Below are positions 13,680 to 40,189 of a stretch of 40,189 nucleotides of DNA, piece after piece. Under the pieces are notes generated by a model that saw only the letters and a list, made by a program, of their open reading frames with translations, had not been told where the DNA came from and made no database searches. The stretch covers positions 1 through 40,189 of the IMG/VR virus record IMGVR_UViG_3300027985_000473; one strand, given 5' to 3'. The stretch is from a virus. Position 1 is the stretch's first letter, and each line of letters begins with the position of its first letter. The position numbers were made by a program, and so were the translations under genes.

Positions 13680-13906
13680 TGTGCGGACCCGAGAAGAGAC
13701 TTACGGGTTTTGAACTTGTCGTCGCCCTGGCCGCCGGTAAGCAGAGTGTTAGCGCGCCCCGCCATCTGCTTTTCATACGCCGCCTGCTGATCAGCTTTCT
13801 GCTTATTTGCTTTTGCTTCAGCGGCCGCTGTTGCCTTCCGCTGCTCTTCGAGAGCTCTCTCGTAGGCTGAATTGTCAGGCTTGGGTGAACTGAAAAAACC
13901 GCCCAT
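13676..13906 (-). CDS. Small Ala/Lys/Gln-rich protein between terminase and portal
   Basis: 76 residues. A Gly/Phe-rich start (MGGFFSSPKP) leads into a single charged helix of Ala, Lys, Gln and Glu (residues 12-50), then a short tail. Small proteins of this form often sit between terL and the portal in podoviruses of this type. Stop and start overlap both neighbours (1 and 4 bases). Function unknown; a minor virion or assembly protein is the likeliest reading. Confidence 0.6.
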   Translation of the reverse strand: MGGFFSSPKPDNSAYERALEEQRKATAAAEAKANKQKADQQAAYEKQMAGRANTLLTGGQGDDKFKTRKSLLGSAQ

Positions 13907-15291
13907 TAGTGCACTCCGTATAGAAGAGGGTTGTAATCCTCTATGACCTCAACCAGCTGCCTATTACGAGGGGCTCCCGCCCTCTCGTGGGGTGAACGCC
14001 TAAGCGGGTCATAGTTTGTTCCGATGGCAACAGGCACACGTTTCACGAAGTCAGAAGGTGCCTGCCTTGTGGTAGCGAGCGTCCTAAACGCATCTGCGAA
14101 GTGACTTGTCCAGTCATGGATAGGCGCGCCATACGCACGCTTACGGTCATCCCAGGCTGCACGGTAGCCCTTCAAGGCTTCGATACCCTTTGCACACCTG
14201 GAAGCGTCGAACCGGCACTTATGAAGAAGAAGACGACAGGAGTTAATCCCCTCTTCGATAGGCGCCCGGGGTGCGATGCGTTGGCGATGCCTGCCCATGT
14301 TGGCTAGAGTTTGACGACGTGAGACGCCGGTTCCCGGCTCACGTTGCTTGCCATCGTGGGGGAGGCAGTCATCGCCGTAGACGTAAGGTTTCTGGTCCAA
14401 GACTTTCACGTAGTGGTCGAACCCAAAGCCTTGGTTATAGTACAGGTCAATAACGTTAACCCATTCACCGACGTTCTGGTACATCCAGATGACCATTGTG
14501 TCATCGATACCAATGTCCCACGCGGTATGGACAGGGAAAGCCGGGTCGTAGGGGAGATCGCGAATCTGGCCGTTCTTCTCAATGATCGACATCTGCTCGC
14601 CGTAGAACGAACCAACCAGTGCAGCGTCCCATGAGCAGTAGAACTCCTGCATCGCCAAGGACGGCGGCATGCCAGACGCGATTTCCGCCTGCACTTCATC
14701 GTCGGTCATGACGTTGGTATCCTTAATGGTCAAGACCTCAGAATACCAACCGCGTTCTGTCTTGGACGCCTTGTACATGTCGTACATGTGGTTCTTACCA
14801 CGAGGCGTACCGTTGAAGAGCGCCCAGCCCTTGTTTTCAAGTAAGATTGGACGCAGGTAGTCCCACGCTGCGATCTTATGCAGGGAGAACTCAGAGAACA
14901 AAACACCGACCGGGTTGGTACCCACGATCGAGTCAATGTTATCCGAGCCGAGGAACCTGATGAATGAGCCGTTCTGGAGTTCCAGAGTCATCTTCTGGTT
15001 ATCCTTGCGAACGATAAGCTCGCGAGGAATGTGGTCGATGAATCTGAAGCCGTCTTTGTCCATGCCTTCCCACAAGATTGCTCTTGCTTGGGTGTAGTAT
15101 GGCAGGATATAGAAATACGTTCCTACACGCTTAATGGACTCGCGCGCAGTAATGTTGATGAATACTTTGTCTTTGCCGGCGCGTCTGTGCCAGACGAACA
15201 GTCCCCTGTTAAACCCGTCGGGCAGGCAGTTGTACATATTGTACTGATACTGCCTGAACTTCATGTTAAAGGGGATTGATATCGTGGACAT
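13906..15291 (-). CDS. terL: Terminase large subunit
   Basis: 461 residues. The ATPase half has a Walker A of the terminase type (FVWHRRAGKDKVF, about residues 32-44), a Walker B-like strand ending in Glu (VGVLFSEFS) and a coupling motif with LFNGTPRGKN. The nuclease half shows the metal-binding Asp in AWDIGIDDTMV and the late HFADAFRTL Asp. It cuts and pumps concatemeric DNA into the prohead through the portal. It directly follows the small subunit with a 1-base overlap. Confidence 0.9.
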   Translation of the reverse strand: MSTISIPFNMKFRQYQYNMYNCLPDGFNRGLFVWHRRAGKDKVFINITARESIKRVGTYFYILPYYTQARAILWEGMDKDGFRFIDHIPRELIVRKDNQKMTLELQNGSFIRFLGSDNIDSIVGTNPVGVLFSEFSLHKIAAWDYLRPILLENKGWALFNGTPRGKNHMYDMYKASKTERGWYSEVLTIKDTNVMTDDEVQAEIASGMPPSLAMQEFYCSWDAALVGSFYGEQMSIIEKNGQIRDLPYDPAFPVHTAWDIGIDDTMVIWMYQNVGEWVNVIDLYYNQGFGFDHYVKVLDQKPYVYGDDCLPHDGKQREPGTGVSRRQTLANMGRHRQRIAPRAPIEEGINSCRLLLHKCRFDASRCAKGIEALKGYRAAWDDRKRAYGAPIHDWTSHFADAFRTLATTRQAPSDFVKRVPVAIGTNYDPLRRSPHERAGAPRNRQLVEVIEDYNPLLYGVH

Positions 15292-15719
15292 TACGCTTCC
15301 AGCCTATTCATGATCTGGACGACGATGCCCCCACCTTTTCCGGCAGACTCATCGATCTTCTGGGTGTACATGCCGCCAGTCAGAGCTTGGAAGGACTTTG
15401 AAATATCGGCGAGTGCCTTTGGGGCACCGGGGTCGTTTACGTCTATTTCGTTTGCGACCAGCAGTATCTTTTCAAGAATTGTTATTTCGGCTCTGGCGTA
15501 GTGTGGCAGAAGCGCGAGGCGCTTGGCCATGGAAAGCTTGGCTACTTCTTCGGCTGTTTCGACTTCGGGTTTAATGATGGCCGGAAGCACCCAGTTTCCG
15601 TCAGCCGCCGCCTTTTTAACGACAGTGACAGGAACTGAGAGCAACCCAGCGATCTTTGCCTCGTCGTACCCGAAAGATTCGTAGTACAGGCGGATAAGGG
15701 TAAGTTGGGACTCATCCAT
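15291..15719 (-). CDS. terS: Terminase small subunit (probable)
   Basis: 142 residues with an N-terminal helix-turn-helix-like segment (TLIRLYYESFGYDEAKIAGLLSVPVTVVKKAAADGNW) followed by helices. This is the usual build of a DNA-recognising small terminase. It is the first gene of the leftward late operon and overlaps terL by one base. No strong Shine-Dalgarno precedes the ATG. The assignment rests on position plus the HTH-like region. Confidence 0.7.
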   Translation of the reverse strand: MDESQLTLIRLYYESFGYDEAKIAGLLSVPVTVVKKAAADGNWVLPAIIKPEVETAEEVAKLSMAKRLALLPHYARAEITILEKILLVANEIDVNDPGAPKALADISKSFQALTGGMYTQKIDESAGKGGGIVVQIMNRLEA

Positions 15720-16112
15720 GAGGCCAGGCTAACAAATTTTCTTGGATTTGTAAACAAAAATAGTCTACATTTCACGTATACTTGGTGCATTAAATCAAGG
15801 GTAGGGTAATCCTAATTTACAAAGAAAGTATAATGCGTCAAAAGTATGCTTCTGCACCAGGTGAGAATGGGGCTATATATGATGATAGGGGACGAAGGGT
15901 TACCGTACTTTTGTAGAAGGGAAATTTTAAAAAGGGACTTTGTGTATACGGGTGACCCGACGAAGGATCGTCGCAAGGCAATTCCCCCCTCCGGGGGCCC
16001 TAAATGACATATAATCATTTCTTCGTGGGGAAAGCATACAGGAGCGTCACTCCGTAGTCTATACATTACATTCTTTGTGTACGTAATGCCGCACTGATAC
16101 ATTTGTGTTAAT
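15720..16112. promoter_or_regulatory. Non-coding control region upstream of the late operon
   Basis: About 390 bp without a convincing gene. On the minus strand two late-promoter candidates are visible, both weak. One is TTGACG (15841-15836) with TAAATT (15819-15814) at 16-bp spacing. The other is TTTTTGTTTACAA, ending at 15748, whose upstream part is identical to the early promoter at 23430 but whose -10 (TAGCCT) is poor. Other structures are the hairpin CGACGA-AGGA-TCGTCG near 15960-15975 and CCCCC-TCC-GGGGG near 15986-15998. The 96-codon minus ORF here has no family-like features. Confidence 0.4.
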
Positions 16113-16424
16113 CGTATAGGCCAGCCAATGTACTACACGAATGTTCTCTACTCCTAGCTCCGTCCTGTCATGCTTCCTGTACTGTCATGCTTCTGTACTG
16201 TCACACTTTTCGTGCTGTCACACCTTTTGTGCTGTCATACTTTCAGGTCGTCACACCTTCTGCGTAGGACCGCAGAAGCTGCGCCAACCAGAAAGTCCGC
16301 CATCCCAAAAGCTGCGCCATCCCAAAAAGATGCGCCATCCCAGAAGCCCGCCAGTCCAGGAAGCCCGCCAGGACGTCACGTCGTCGCGCCGAACATTCGT
16401 TTCGTACATTGGCTGGCCTATACG
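16113..16424. repeat. 312-bp imperfect palindrome made of two inverted arrays of ~17-bp repeats
   Basis: The ends, 16113-16146 and 16391-16424, are 34-base inverted repeats with 32 matches. Inside, 16161-16262 holds six 16-18-base units (type GTGCTGTCACACCTTTT). 16273-16373 holds six units (type AAAAGCTGCGCCATCCC) that are the diverged inverse of the first six in the same order. The apex is CTTCTGCG-TAGGAC-CGCAGAAG (16257-16278). Seven- and eight-base perfect pairs (for example 16161-16167 with 16369-16375, and 16072+100 i.e. 16172-16179 with 16357-16364) alternate with mismatched stretches of about 4-5 bases. It could be a structured RNA, a replication or packaging signal, or a small inverted-repeat element. 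Confidence 0.85.
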
Positions 16425-16458
16425 GGAGGGGCCGCACAAACTTTTTTCATTTACCCCC

Positions 16459-16487
16459 TTTACATTACCCCCAAAAAGCCTTATATC
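16459..16487 (+). promoter_or_regulatory. Sigma-70-like promoter of the first winged-helix gene
   Basis: TTTACA (16459-16464), 17-bp spacer, TATATC (16482-16487). It uses the same -35 and spacing as the other early promoters, and the spacer begins TTACCCCC. It lies just outside the large palindrome and 44 bp before the ATG at 16531. Confidence 0.65.
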
Positions 16488-16530
16488 TTAATCACCACAT
16501 CACATGAACCCCTAACAACAGGAGCACACC

Positions 16531-16863
16531 ATGACCACCAACCAGAACCCCATCTCCGAAGAACTCCAGAACATCATCAACAACCCTGACCAGATCTCCA
16601 CCTCCGAACTCGACTTGATCACCCTACTCGAAGAAGCAGTATCCTACATCAACTTCCTCATCAACCAGCGTCAGAATCCCGACGCCAGAAAGACCCAAGT
16701 CTTGAATCTCCTTCAGGCTGCCCCTCACACCATTCAGGAGCTCGCCGACAAGTTGAACACTTCTACGAAGAACATCTCTTCCCAACTCACCTACCTTCGC
16801 AAGGACGGCCATCCGATATGTACCAACCATATCGGCCAGAAGTTCCTCGCGAATATCGAATAA
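16531..16863 (+). CDS. Winged-helix DNA-binding regulator (paralogue 1)
   Basis: 110 residues. The C-terminal half (about residues 58-108) is a winged helix: QVLNLLQAAPHTIQELADKLN, then the recognition-helix stretch TSTKNISSQLTYLRKDG, then a wing. It is nearly identical in that part to the protein at 17367 and related to the one at 27880. The N-terminal half is acidic and helical, possibly a dimerisation arm (LITLLEEAVSYINFLINQRQN). It has its own promoter, an AGGAG site 6 bases before the ATG and a hairpin after the stop, so it is an independent transcription unit. Codons are strongly C-ending, suggesting high expression. Role inferred: a DNA-binding switch for phage transcription. Confidence 0.75.
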   Translation: MTTNQNPISEELQNIINNPDQISTSELDLITLLEEAVSYINFLINQRQNPDARKTQVLNLLQAAPHTIQELADKLNTSTKNISSQLTYLRKDGHPICTNHIGQKFLANIE

Positions 16864-16873
16864 CCAATAACGC

Positions 16874-16905
16874 AGCCTGGTTGGTCTATATAGGCCAACC
16901 AGGCT
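16874..16905 (+). terminator. Hairpin after the first winged-helix gene
   Basis: Perfect 11-bp stem AGCCTGGTTGG (16874-16884) with CCAACCAGGCT (16895-16905); the loop can pair further. The following bases (GTCAAATTT) are only weakly U-rich, so termination may be partial. The hairpin contains TATAGGCCAACCA, closely related to TATAGGCCAGCCA in both ends of the 312-bp palindrome, so it may be a recognition site rather than only a terminator. Confidence 0.55.
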
Positions 16906-17276
16906 GTCAAATTTCCGTCGCGCTCGCTTCGCTCGCGGAGAAGATGCGGTCCACCGTCGCCCTGAGAGGGACTCCGGTGATCTACTAGCTGGGGAAGTCC
17001 TCACTACGAACCGTCACAATTCCTGTAACAGGAATTGCGCCGATTCTCCGTTCGTCTTATCTACCAGAATACGACCGCAGTCGCCTTCGGCGTGCGGTCA
17101 TAAAGACACGTCCACCACCGCATGGAGAGACCATGCGCTGCCGGACCGGCCCAGCACAGCAAGACGGAGCATATCAGGCAATCTATATCCCAGCACAGCA
17201 AGACGGAACACATGATTGTGCGTCCATGTATAGCGTGCCGACCTGCCCATGAAGTTTTTTAAAAATTGGTGATATT
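16906..17276 (+). ncRNA. Hairpin-rich non-coding stretch, candidate structured RNA
   Basis: 371 bp with no gene. Possible helices: CGGAGAA (16936-16942) with TTCTCCG (17044-17050) enclosing CACCG/CGGTG near 16952-16979 and a perfect 9-bp hairpin CAATTCCTG-TAA-CAGGAATTG (17017-17037). These are followed by GACCGCA/TGCGGTC (17073-17099, with inner CGCC/GGCG) and CGCATGG-AGAGA-CCATGCG (17119-17137). It lies between a hairpin terminator and the next promoter, and no promoter of its own was found. Whether it is transcribed as an RNA is inference. Confidence 0.4.
17150..17207 (+). repeat. Two 19-bp direct repeats, CCCAGCACAGCAAGACGGA
   Basis: Exact copies at 17150-17168 and 17189-17207. A shortened relative (CAGCCCAGCAAGACGGA) is at 17854-17870. 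A near copy lies inside the second winged-helix gene around 17451-17470 (CCAGCACAGCAAGAAGGACG). The copies bracket the promoter and gene of winged-helix paralogue 2, which would suit operator or recombination sites. Confidence 0.75.
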
Positions 17277-17280
17277 TTCG

Positions 17281-17309
17281 TTTACAAGGTAATTCCCCCG
17301 TGTTATAAT
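17281..17309 (+). promoter_or_regulatory. Early promoter of winged-helix paralogue 2
   Basis: TTTACA (17281-17286), 17-bp spacer containing GGTAATTCCCCCGTG, TATAAT (17304-17309). It shares the -35, the spacing and the GGTANTNCC-like spacer element with the promoters at 18574, 23430 and 27812. The gene's ATG follows 57 bp later. Confidence 0.85.
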
Positions 17310-17366: not shown

Positions 17367-17738
17367 ATGAACACGGAGACCACCAACACCCAGGCTGAGG
17401 AAATCCAGAACGAGCAGTTCGTGCCCATGACCATGGAAGAGATCAGCCAGCACAGCAAGAAGGACGTGCTGGAGGGCTACGAGAACCTGCTGCTCGAGTA
17501 CACCGAGCTCCTCTCGAAGTACGAGGAACTGCAGGCCAGGATGGGTCAGGGCAGCGAGCACCGGCGTGAACAGGTTCTGAGGCTGCTCCAGGAGGGGCCC
17601 GCGACGCTCCAGGAACTGGCTGACAAGCTCAACACGAGCACCAAGAACATTTCCAGCCAGCTCTCCTACCTCCGCAAGGACGGCCATCCGATCGGCACCG
17701 ACCATCTCGGCCGCAAGTTCATCGTCAAGGTGGACTAA
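17367..17738 (+). CDS. Winged-helix DNA-binding regulator (paralogue 2)
   Basis: 123 residues. The C-terminal winged helix (about residues 70-122) contains QVLRLLQEGPATLQELADKLN, TSTKNISSQLSYLRKDGHPI and a beta wing. It matches the 16531 protein almost residue for residue, while the N-terminal 65 residues differ and form acidic helices with a leucine-rich segment (LEGYENLLLEYTELLSKYEELQ) that could dimerise. It has its own strong promoter, an AGGAG site and a textbook terminator. GC and codon bias are high, like the capsid gene. A DNA-binding regulatory role is well supported; the target is inferred to be the shared promoter/operator set. Confidence 0.78.
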   Translation: MNTETTNTQAEEIQNEQFVPMTMEEISQHSKKDVLEGYENLLLEYTELLSKYEELQARMGQGSEHRREQVLRLLQEGPATLQELADKLNTSTKNISSQLSYLRKDGHPIGTDHLGRKFIVKVD

Positions 17739-17783: not shown

Positions 17784-17870
17784 ACCCATTGGTGCTGGGA
17801 CTTAGGCAACTCCGGGCGTAAATTCGAGCTTCAGGAGTGACCTTTTCCTGCCTCAGCCCAGCAAGACGGA

Positions 17871-18573
17871 GCCTGTGTGTCTCGTTTGACCATGAAATGT
17901 CGGGGCGAGTGTAGAAATTAACTAATAATAGCTTATCGGGCGTTCCAATGCACACAATTTATATGTAAATTTTAAACATTTCAATAATTTAAGCTTCTAA
18001 TAAACAATTTAATAGTAATTCATTGGAAAATTTAGTTTGAAAACATCCATTTTTCACCACCCAGTAGCACTGTAGGATCAGCCGGGACCACTGCCATACG
18101 AAGCTTGTGGTACGTTATAGCACACGTGTGGTATGTTATAACGTATAGCCTATAGTACATTATAGCATACCACTGGCGTGCTATAACACATAGCCTGTAG
18201 TATACTATAATACAGAGCCTGTAGTACGCCATAACATATGGCTTGTAGCATACTATAACACATATACAGTGAGATACGCTACCTACACCGCACCCAGCGT
18301 TACAAGATAAGTAAGTAATTAGTCAATAAGTAAGGAATTAGTTAACCGAGAACTAACCTATAGGGTTTTTGCGGAGAATTACGTTAAAACTACTTAACAA
18401 GCAAATTTTAACATTTTTGTCTATTTTATTACCTATTTATTAAATCATATCAAATAGTTAAGTAATAAGTAAACGAAAGGAACTTTCTCACTTCCTAACT
18501 GCTGTATATTACGCATTACTTTATTTTTTGGGGTCGTCCAGCCATACCATTATGATTTCCAGTAATATTTTTA
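17871..18573. other. AT-rich non-coding region, candidate replication origin
   Basis: About 700 bp without a gene and much richer in A+T than the rest of the window. It holds an 8-bp inverted repeat TTCCAATG (near 17944) and CATTGGAA (near 18020), the repeat array at 18101-18270, and then several AAGTAA/AATTAG direct repeats between 18306 and 18475. Repeats beside an AT-rich stretch just upstream of the early genes resemble a replication origin, but no known origin was recognised. Confidence 0.5.
18101..18270 (+). repeat. Array of about seven degenerate 20-25-bp repeats (iteron-like)
   Basis: Successive units approximate GCCTGTAGTATACTATAACA, for example at about 18193-18216, 18217-18240 and 18241-18262, with more diverged copies upstream from 18101. 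Each unit contains a TAGTATACTA-like partial palindrome followed by TATAACAC. The arrangement is that of binding sites for a replication initiator or regulator. Confidence 0.75.
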
Positions 18574-24918: not shown

Positions 24919-25193
24919 GTACTATTTTTACGGCTTCTAAAGCATACCTAAACGACGAGTACTGGGATATACCCATATCCCTACGTCTGATGCGTAAACT
25001 CGCCACCCTAACCCCCTGGATGGAATATACGTACAATGAGGCCGTGAAAGCGTGTATAGCCCATATCGAAGCCCGTATCGCAGCGGCTAAGCTTTATAGT
25101 GAGGTATATCTGTCCGAAAGTTCAGATGAACGGTACCGTATTCCCACCCGCGAAGAACACAGATGGATGAGTAATTTAGAAGATGACTATTAG
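24915..25193 (+). CDS. Unknown helical protein
   Basis: 92 residues from the GTG at 24915, which overlaps the previous TGA (GTGA) and has GGAG five bases upstream. The longer ORF start at 24873 lies inside the preceding gene. The middle is helical (NEAVKACIAHIEARIAAAKLYSEVYLSES). No family recognised. It is the last gene before a large hairpin. Confidence 0.6.
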   Translation: MSTIFTASKAYLNDEYWDIPISLRLMRKLATLTPWMEYTYNEAVKACIAHIEARIAAAKLYSEVYLSESSDERYRIPTREEHRWMSNLEDDY

Positions 25194-25198
25194 GATTT

Positions 25199-25269
25199 AA
25201 AATCCTGCCAGCTCCAGCGGCTGAGGCGTATACTCCTGTTGATGTGGAATAGGAGCTGGCAGGATTTTT
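25199..25269 (+). terminator. Very long hairpin, probable terminator or attenuator
   Basis: Perfect 17-bp stem AAAATCCTGCCAGCTCC (25199-25215) with GGAGCTGGCAGGATTTT (25252-25268), 36-nt loop, ending in a run of five T. It fits a rho-independent terminator, though the stem is unusually long and the loop large. It stands between the small-gene run and the DUF2800 gene, for which no new promoter was found, so partial read-through or RNase processing is likely. Confidence 0.7.
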
Positions 25270-25290
25270 AACACTAATATAGGAGTAACT

Positions 25291-28475: not shown

Positions 28476-28551
28476 GGGGGCATAGCTCAGCTGGGAGAGC
28501 GTCTGCTTTGCACGCAGAGGGTCACGAGTTCAAGTCTCGTTGTCTCCACCA
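28476..28551 (+). tRNA. tRNA-Ala (anticodon TGC)
   Basis: 76 nt cloverleaf including an encoded CCA. The acceptor GGGGGCA/TGTCTCC includes a G3-U70 pair, the identity element for alanine. The anticodon stem TCTGC/GCAGA encloses TTTGCAC (anticodon TGC at 28509-28511), and the T arm contains GTTCAAGTC. It would decode GCA and related Ala codons. Confidence 0.95.
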
Positions 28552-28758
28552 ATATACTTTACTGCGGAGGTCATATGCGGTGTAAACTAGCCCATGCTAC
28601 GCTGCTGACCTCACGGCCGTGGTACCGCACCGAAGAGGCCGGTGTAGGACATGGCACGCTGAGGGGCTGCTAGCAGCGAGGTAAAGCCCTCGCAACCGTG
28701 TGGGAGGTGGGCGGACTCAACCTACCGTTCCACCTCCCACTTCTGCAGTAAAGTATAT
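28552..28758 (+). ncRNA. Candidate structured RNA between the two tRNAs
   Basis: The stretch is closed by a perfect stem, ATATACTTTACTGC (28552-28565) with GCAGTAAAGTATAT (28745-28758). Internal helices: GAGGTCA/TGACCTC (28567-28573 with 28606-28612) containing TAGC-CCAT-GCTA; GCACCG/CGGTGT (28627-28645); GCGAGG-TAAAGC-CCTCGC (28676-28693); and an 11-bp GTGGGAGGTGG/CCACCTCCCAC (28700-28740). No ORF of note. The stem begins exactly at the tRNA-Ala CCA end, so tRNA processing would release it. No known RNA family was recognised. Confidence 0.65.
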
Positions 28759-28765
28759 TTAGTAA

Positions 28766-28840
28766 GCCGGCGTACCCAAGCGGTATGGGACTTGATTTGT
28801 AATCAAGCTGCCGGGGGTTCGAATCCCTCCGCTGGCCCCA
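28766..28840 (+). tRNA. tRNA-Thr (anticodon TGT)
   Basis: 75 nt cloverleaf including CCA. Acceptor GCCGGCG/CGCTGGC, D arm CCCA/TGGG, anticodon stem CTTGA/TCAAG with loop TTTGTAA (anticodon TGT at 28798-28800), T arm GGGGG-TTCGAAT-CCCTC. The discriminator base is C, uncommon for Thr. Confidence 0.93.
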
Positions 28841-39946: not shown

Positions 39947-40189
39947 TACGCCACCTCAATAACAACAGGCGACGGGCAGACGAACACAAGCGTGGCACTG
40001 AGGGCATACCCGACGATCTGCACTTGGTCGCCCGTGCCGGAAGGGGCGGTCTGCGTCCACATGCCGGGGTCCGTGGAGGCGTAGATGGGAAGTCCAGGCG
40101 TCCACGTCCAAGAGTTCACACGGAGGAATCCGAGGAGAAGGACGTTCACCACGTCGTTGAGCACACCAGACCCAAGCGACACACAGCGA
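39946..40189 (-). CDS. Tail fibre, C-terminal part (continues at bases 105-880)
   Basis: This is the 3' end of the fibre gene that starts at 880 on the other side of the join; bases 40086-40189 duplicate 1-104. The reading frame matches exactly across the overlap. The C-terminal residues are hydrophobic and beta-rich (ending LVFVCPSPVVIEVA). Its TAA stop overlaps the ATG of the next gene by one base (TAATG), which indicates translational coupling in the late operon. Read alone it would look like a 78-residue ORF, which is an artefact of where the map was cut. Confidence 0.8.
   Translation of the reverse strand, partial: RCVSLGSGVLNDVVNVLLLGFLRVNSWTWTPGLPIYASTDPGMWTQTAPSGTGDQVQIVGYALSATLVFVCPSPVVIEVA
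40086..40189. repeat. Direct terminal repeat, right copy
   Basis: Exact second copy of bases 1-104. Overlaying the copies joins the minus-strand fibre ORF that starts at 880 to its stop at 39946. This shows that the late operon is continuous across the window ends. Confidence 0.95.

Follow-up and report, generated by a model that had tools for sequence, protein, structure and literature searches.

We identified a single imperfect palindrome of 312 bases at positions 16113-16424 of the IMG/VR virus record IMGVR_UViG_3300027985_000473, whose full 40,189 nucleotides form the window analysed here, in a non-coding gap between early and late genes. We propose, with a probability of roughly 40%, that this palindrome is a functional element acting as a folded minus strand, more likely as RNA than as single-stranded DNA (ssDNA).

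The record carries a 104-bp direct terminal repeat (1-104 and 40086-40189), and the palindrome occupies the divergent gap between leftward late and rightward early genes. The late genes run leftward from 15719 and begin with a 142-aa protein (15291-15719, minus strand) presumed, by its position directly upstream of the terminase large subunit (TerL) only, to be the small terminase (TerS); a family search with it gave no match above cut-off. TerL (13906-15291, minus strand; phrog_2, 9.1e-28), portal and tail genes follow. The early genes run rightward from 16531 and encode a winged-HTH protein, primase, exonuclease, ThyX, DNA polymerase A, ligase and helicase. The first of these, 110 aa and HTH_11/ArsR-like (16531-16863, plus strand; PF08279 2.2e-6, PF01022 1.8e-5), has a paralogue of 50% identity at 17367-17738, and neither winged-HTH protein has detectable relatives in the phage, viral or bacterial collections searched. 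A host-type promoter-like site, TTTACA-17-TATATC (16459-16487, plus strand; a consensus match only), begins 34 bp right of the palindrome and reads away from it. Exact TTTACA-17-TATAAT sites of the same form are found at 17281, 18574 and 23430, and to the right of the palindrome we saw no sigma-70-type promoter pointing leftward. Virion-RNA-polymerase hairpin promoters were also considered and set aside, the 1314-aa virion protein carrying only an LPD38 domain. Further into the early side, 28-bp inverted repeats (25188-25279, 89% complementary) lie just 5' of the DUF2800 exonuclease gene, and two tRNA genes (28476-28548 and 28766-28837) have 21-bp inverted repeats between them (28551-28571 / 28739-28759).

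The palindrome is far beyond chance expectation, scoring 158 where the top palindrome of a single shuffled window reached 47.5. Its 34-bp outer arms (16113-16146, plus strand, and 16391-16424, minus strand) are 94% complementary, with two differences. Inside them lies a left array of six 16-18-bp units (16163-16264, plus strand) with the core TGTCA (CGTCA in the last unit), the cores starting at 16166, 16183, 16199, 16216, 16233 and 16249. The right array (16271-16373, minus strand) holds six units in mirrored order with the minus-strand core TGGCG. At the apex (16257-16278), CTTCTGCG (16257-16264) and CGCAGAAG (16271-16278) form an 8-bp stem around the 6-nt loop TAGGAC (16265-16270). Re-analysis bore out the coordinates of the preliminary description together with its other details: ends of 34 bp that match at 32 positions, six units mirrored on each arm, and an apex stem of 8 bp. 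That layout needs one correction, since the block of about 17 bp that separates the outer arms from the arrays is essentially without matches: the left spacer (16147-16162) pairs poorly with the right spacer (16374-16390), differing from it in 11 of 17 aligned columns. We rejected a coding role for the palindrome on the basis of the 16-18-bp unit length and of overlapping frames that lack a family match. The contiguous, diverged 16-18-bp units have no spacers of the kind that define a CRISPR array, and neither end of the palindrome shows the GC stem (up to about 20 bp) and direct T run of an intrinsic terminator.

To compare the zones, we reverse-complemented the right arm and aligned it with the left. 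The arms differ at 2 of 34 positions in the outer arm, 11 of 17 in the spacer and 29 of 103 in the array (the last two lengths are approximate). Pairing left and right units in mirrored order gave the best score among all 720 unit permutations. The cores, scored over six positions, differ by a mean of 0.9 and 0.6 within the arms versus 2.7 between them, and the linkers show an edit distance of 2.2 for paired units, compared with 3.7 and 3.6 within an arm and 4.4 for unpaired units. Core differences recur at fixed phases: in each of the six units the arms differ T/G at position 3 and A/G at position 5, with further phase-fixed differences at position 6 (T/G in three units) and position 8 (three units), and this clustering was matched in none of 100,000 shuffles (p<1e-5). 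The earlier proposal that pair positions are kept while the cores differ in a fixed way therefore stands statistically, inside one genome, for unit order and phase. Phase-locked differences need parallel changes in six units, an outcome that neither random decay nor homogenisation of the arrays provides. If each arm were homogenised, the mirrored linkers would be lost, and if one arm were an inverted copy of the other, the cores would match as well. Judged from this one genome, selection on a fold with fixed cores appears to fit the data best.

The preliminary description had suggested folding the segment, and we found that it forms a single hairpin on both strands. As RNA, the plus strand reached -132.5 kcal/mol (z -12.7) and the minus, late-gene strand -176.3 kcal/mol (z -15.4), with no shuffle as good in either case; with DNA parameters, ssDNA energies were -72.2 kcal/mol (z -9.5) for the plus strand and -114.7 kcal/mol (z -19.3) for the minus strand. 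The stronger minus-strand z-scores in both chemistries support a folded minus strand. Read on the plus strand, the arm differences amount to U-C and A-C clashes. Of the 40 substitutions tabulated, 24 are G-A mismatches and 11 are G.U wobbles when read on the minus strand, where the core positions hold mainly single G-A mismatches or G.U wobbles and the helix runs on almost without a break. The earlier picture of a long helix interrupted by an internal loop about every 17 bp thus suits the weaker plus strand, whereas the minus-strand helix is nearly unbroken, and the idea that the cores are kept unpaired likewise holds for the plus strand only since the core loops become G-A and G.U on the minus strand. 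The mismatches are oriented in favour of one strand: when the two bases at each mismatch phase were swapped at random in 400 trials, none gave a strand tilt as large, and only 1.25% of these orientations reached an equally low best-strand energy. GC skew is -0.26 in 16001-17000, and a local minus-strand purine bias could contribute partly to the tilt. Together, the mirrored order, arm-shared linkers, arm-specific cores, mosaic conservation and non-coding character support a folded element.

We next consider relatives of the palindrome. Blastn against phages (50,697 phage records) and plasmids returned no homologue, and there is no second copy in its own genome. Rfam 15 gave no family at the gathering threshold for the palindrome, the best match being 21 bits versus a cut-off of 70; weak miRNA matches, far below cut-off, are due to the hairpin shape, and the only Rfam matches at threshold in the whole window are two tRNAs, both outside the palindrome. 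A search of viral contigs for the core-repeat pattern yielded 110 stretches, the best of which were coding or simple repeats on inspection. The palindrome is an orphan among the collections searched. Its occurrence in one genome, the lack of a homologue, of an Rfam family and of a leftward sigma-70-type promoter, and the purine bias all count against a folded element. The absence of homologues is also in keeping with a relic, in which an inverted duplication of a tandem repeat decays without function, and template switching does give rise to long foldbacks. We regard such a relic as improbable: phase-locking, mosaic conservation and strand tilt are unexpected from random decay, and compact phage genomes usually shed long palindromes. 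A mobile inverted-repeat (MITE-like) insertion, raised in the preliminary description, would fit the 34-bp terminal inverted repeats but found no support otherwise and is very improbable. The flanks (GTTAAT versus GGAGGG) show no target-site duplication, the element is single-copy, and its outer 20-bp end has no exact match in an 84,980-species bacterial genome collection.

Distant relatives of the structural proteins were found through portal (best ~39%) and TerL (best ~47-50%) and screened for long palindromes. Across 28 pieces of 15 IMG/VR genomes found by TerL and 9 phage records, none had a palindrome of comparable strength. In two distant phages with syntenic TerS-TerL-portal genes, G001/L258 and G002/L261, a TTGGCA/TTGACA-17-TATACT promoter is immediately preceded by an intergenic stretch of 200-290 nt that folds as a single hairpin (z about -4 to -6), among early genes and 2-3 kb from the terminase. 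Like the palindrome described here, these are single hairpins composed of short repeats and sit right in front of an early promoter, but they share no sequence similarity with it, fold more weakly, have irregular repeats and lie away from the terminase. Across the 19 consensus promoters of the window and these two phages, four of the five strongest upstream palindromes belong to G001/L258, G002/L261 and the window's first two early promoters, an association spotted after the fact in this small sample. Other long palindromes were discarded: in L294 and L297 they are repeats within the coding sequence of late (tail-type) genes, and a perfect foldback at 4480-4672 of L006, at a contig end inside a gene, is most likely an assembly artefact. 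In L150, a hairpin with ~100-bp arms (1160-1350) lies between two apparently divergent genes whose 5' leaders seem to be inverted copies of each other, and the TerL match of G002 (C1, 12674-14038) contains one internal TAA stop.

The promoter context bears on the main rival to a folded strand, ahead of a packaging signal and then a relic, although we still consider it rather unlikely. Here the palindrome would act as double-stranded DNA, a platform whose two inverted arrays, each with six sites, bind a regulator (possibly one of the two winged-HTH paralogues) ahead of the first early promoter. An inverted duplication would have left the hairpin as a by-product, and the mirrored linkers would be kept by template-switch correction of the quasi-palindrome. 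Consistent with this, the palindrome ends close to the promoter-like site, the promoters at 17281 and 18574 likewise follow repeat arrays or hairpins, the long palindromes of both syntenic phages lie directly upstream of TTGNCA-17-TATACT promoters, and the neighbouring gene encodes a DNA-binding fold. Template switching is able to repair hairpin stems (PMC8794818). Binding sites should match between arms, however, yet here the cores differ while the linkers match, and such a platform leaves the one-strand mismatch tilt unexplained.

The terminase genes suggest another use of the palindrome, as a packaging or concatemer-processing signal in which a cruciform or folded-back DNA end near these genes would be comparable to the T7 hairpin end. 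Phage T7 is reported to form such a hairpin end during concatemer processing. The presumed TerS-TerL genes begin ~0.4 kb downstream of the palindrome, packaging sites often occupy such a position, and the phage encodes T7-like portal and tail proteins. Both cases would combine palindrome-driven folding near packaging functions with a T7-like virion lineage, but the T7 palindrome is short, whereas the element described here has 150-bp arms and repeat arrays without a mapped genome end there. None of the syntenic phages examined has a comparable palindrome beside the terminase, those of G001 and G002 being 2-3 kb off, and the record's terminal repeat lies away from the palindrome. We hold a packaging signal to be improbable, ranking just above a relic.

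Replication had also been put forward as a role. The palindrome is less likely to be the origin because both the minimum of GC skew and a set of iteron-like 24-bp repeats lie ~2 kb away, at about 18.1-18.6 kb, which makes that region the better origin candidate. Iteron arrays occur at plasmid and phage origins or partition sites. Like them, the palindrome places several repeats, here of 16-18 bp, in a control region next to the gene of a DNA-binding protein, but unlike theirs its repeats are mirrored with inter-arm pairing kept, and the likely origin is elsewhere. The combination of an iteron array at a GC-skew minimum with an AT-rich unwinding region was not found at the palindrome; the minimum and AT-rich repeats are at ~18-19 kb. 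There, a 24-bp tandem array in AT-rich DNA at the GC-skew minimum (18114-18277) is a likely replication origin or operator array, and its first units form their own ~72-nt mirrored hairpin (~18114-18187).

Other repeats are found between the palindrome and this array. After the first HTH gene lies a 34-bp hairpin (16873-16906) whose arms are 94% complementary without a loop, and within it positions 16889-16901 match the palindrome end (TATAGGCCARCCA) at 12 of 13 bases. The segment between the two HTH genes contains five or six consecutive hairpins (16864-17145; z -5.2 for 16864-17280). A 25-bp direct repeat, CCCAGCACAGCAAGACGGAGCATAT, occurs upstream of and around the second HTH gene (17150-17174, 17189-17213 and 17852-17876), with a fourth copy of 72% inside the gene (17446-17470); a pattern search with this repeat gave four matches, all unrelated.

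Returning to the folded minus strand, we envisage a hairpin with ~150-bp arms that has a strong base of 31 pairs, then an open spacer, and six near-identical modules leading to a capped apex, in which each of the six helical modules would be marked by a G-A mismatch and a G.U wobble. As RNA, it may either lead the late transcript that runs leftward or be a small RNA in its own right, made from the divergent control region. The six modules could offer six equal binding places for a protein, and the regular mismatches might confer resistance to double-strand-specific nucleases. A second possibility is that the same fold would form in ssDNA: for a fork moving leftward out of the presumed origin at 18.1-18.6 kb, this strand would be the lagging-strand template. 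The structure, phase-locking, strand tilt and position are observed, and in this model we infer transcription or ssDNA exposure, protein binding and the preference for RNA over DNA.

Rod-like modular RNAs (viroid-like or pri-miRNA-like) share with this element a long rod and regularly spaced non-canonical pairs, but the palindrome differs in matching no Rfam family at the gathering threshold. More speculatively, and with a likelihood we place low, the element could represent a new class of phage modular hairpin RNA (or ssDNA), a strand-specific rod of six equivalent G-A/G.U modules that would control the early-to-late switch by loading a protein six times in register. Linkers conserved between arms combined with cores conserved within arms form an internal signature that is searchable elsewhere. 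If the fold is used, it would be a modular scaffold in which repeat number and mismatch spacing are directly testable, and part of the unannotated control DNA in environmental podovirus-like phages would be structural.
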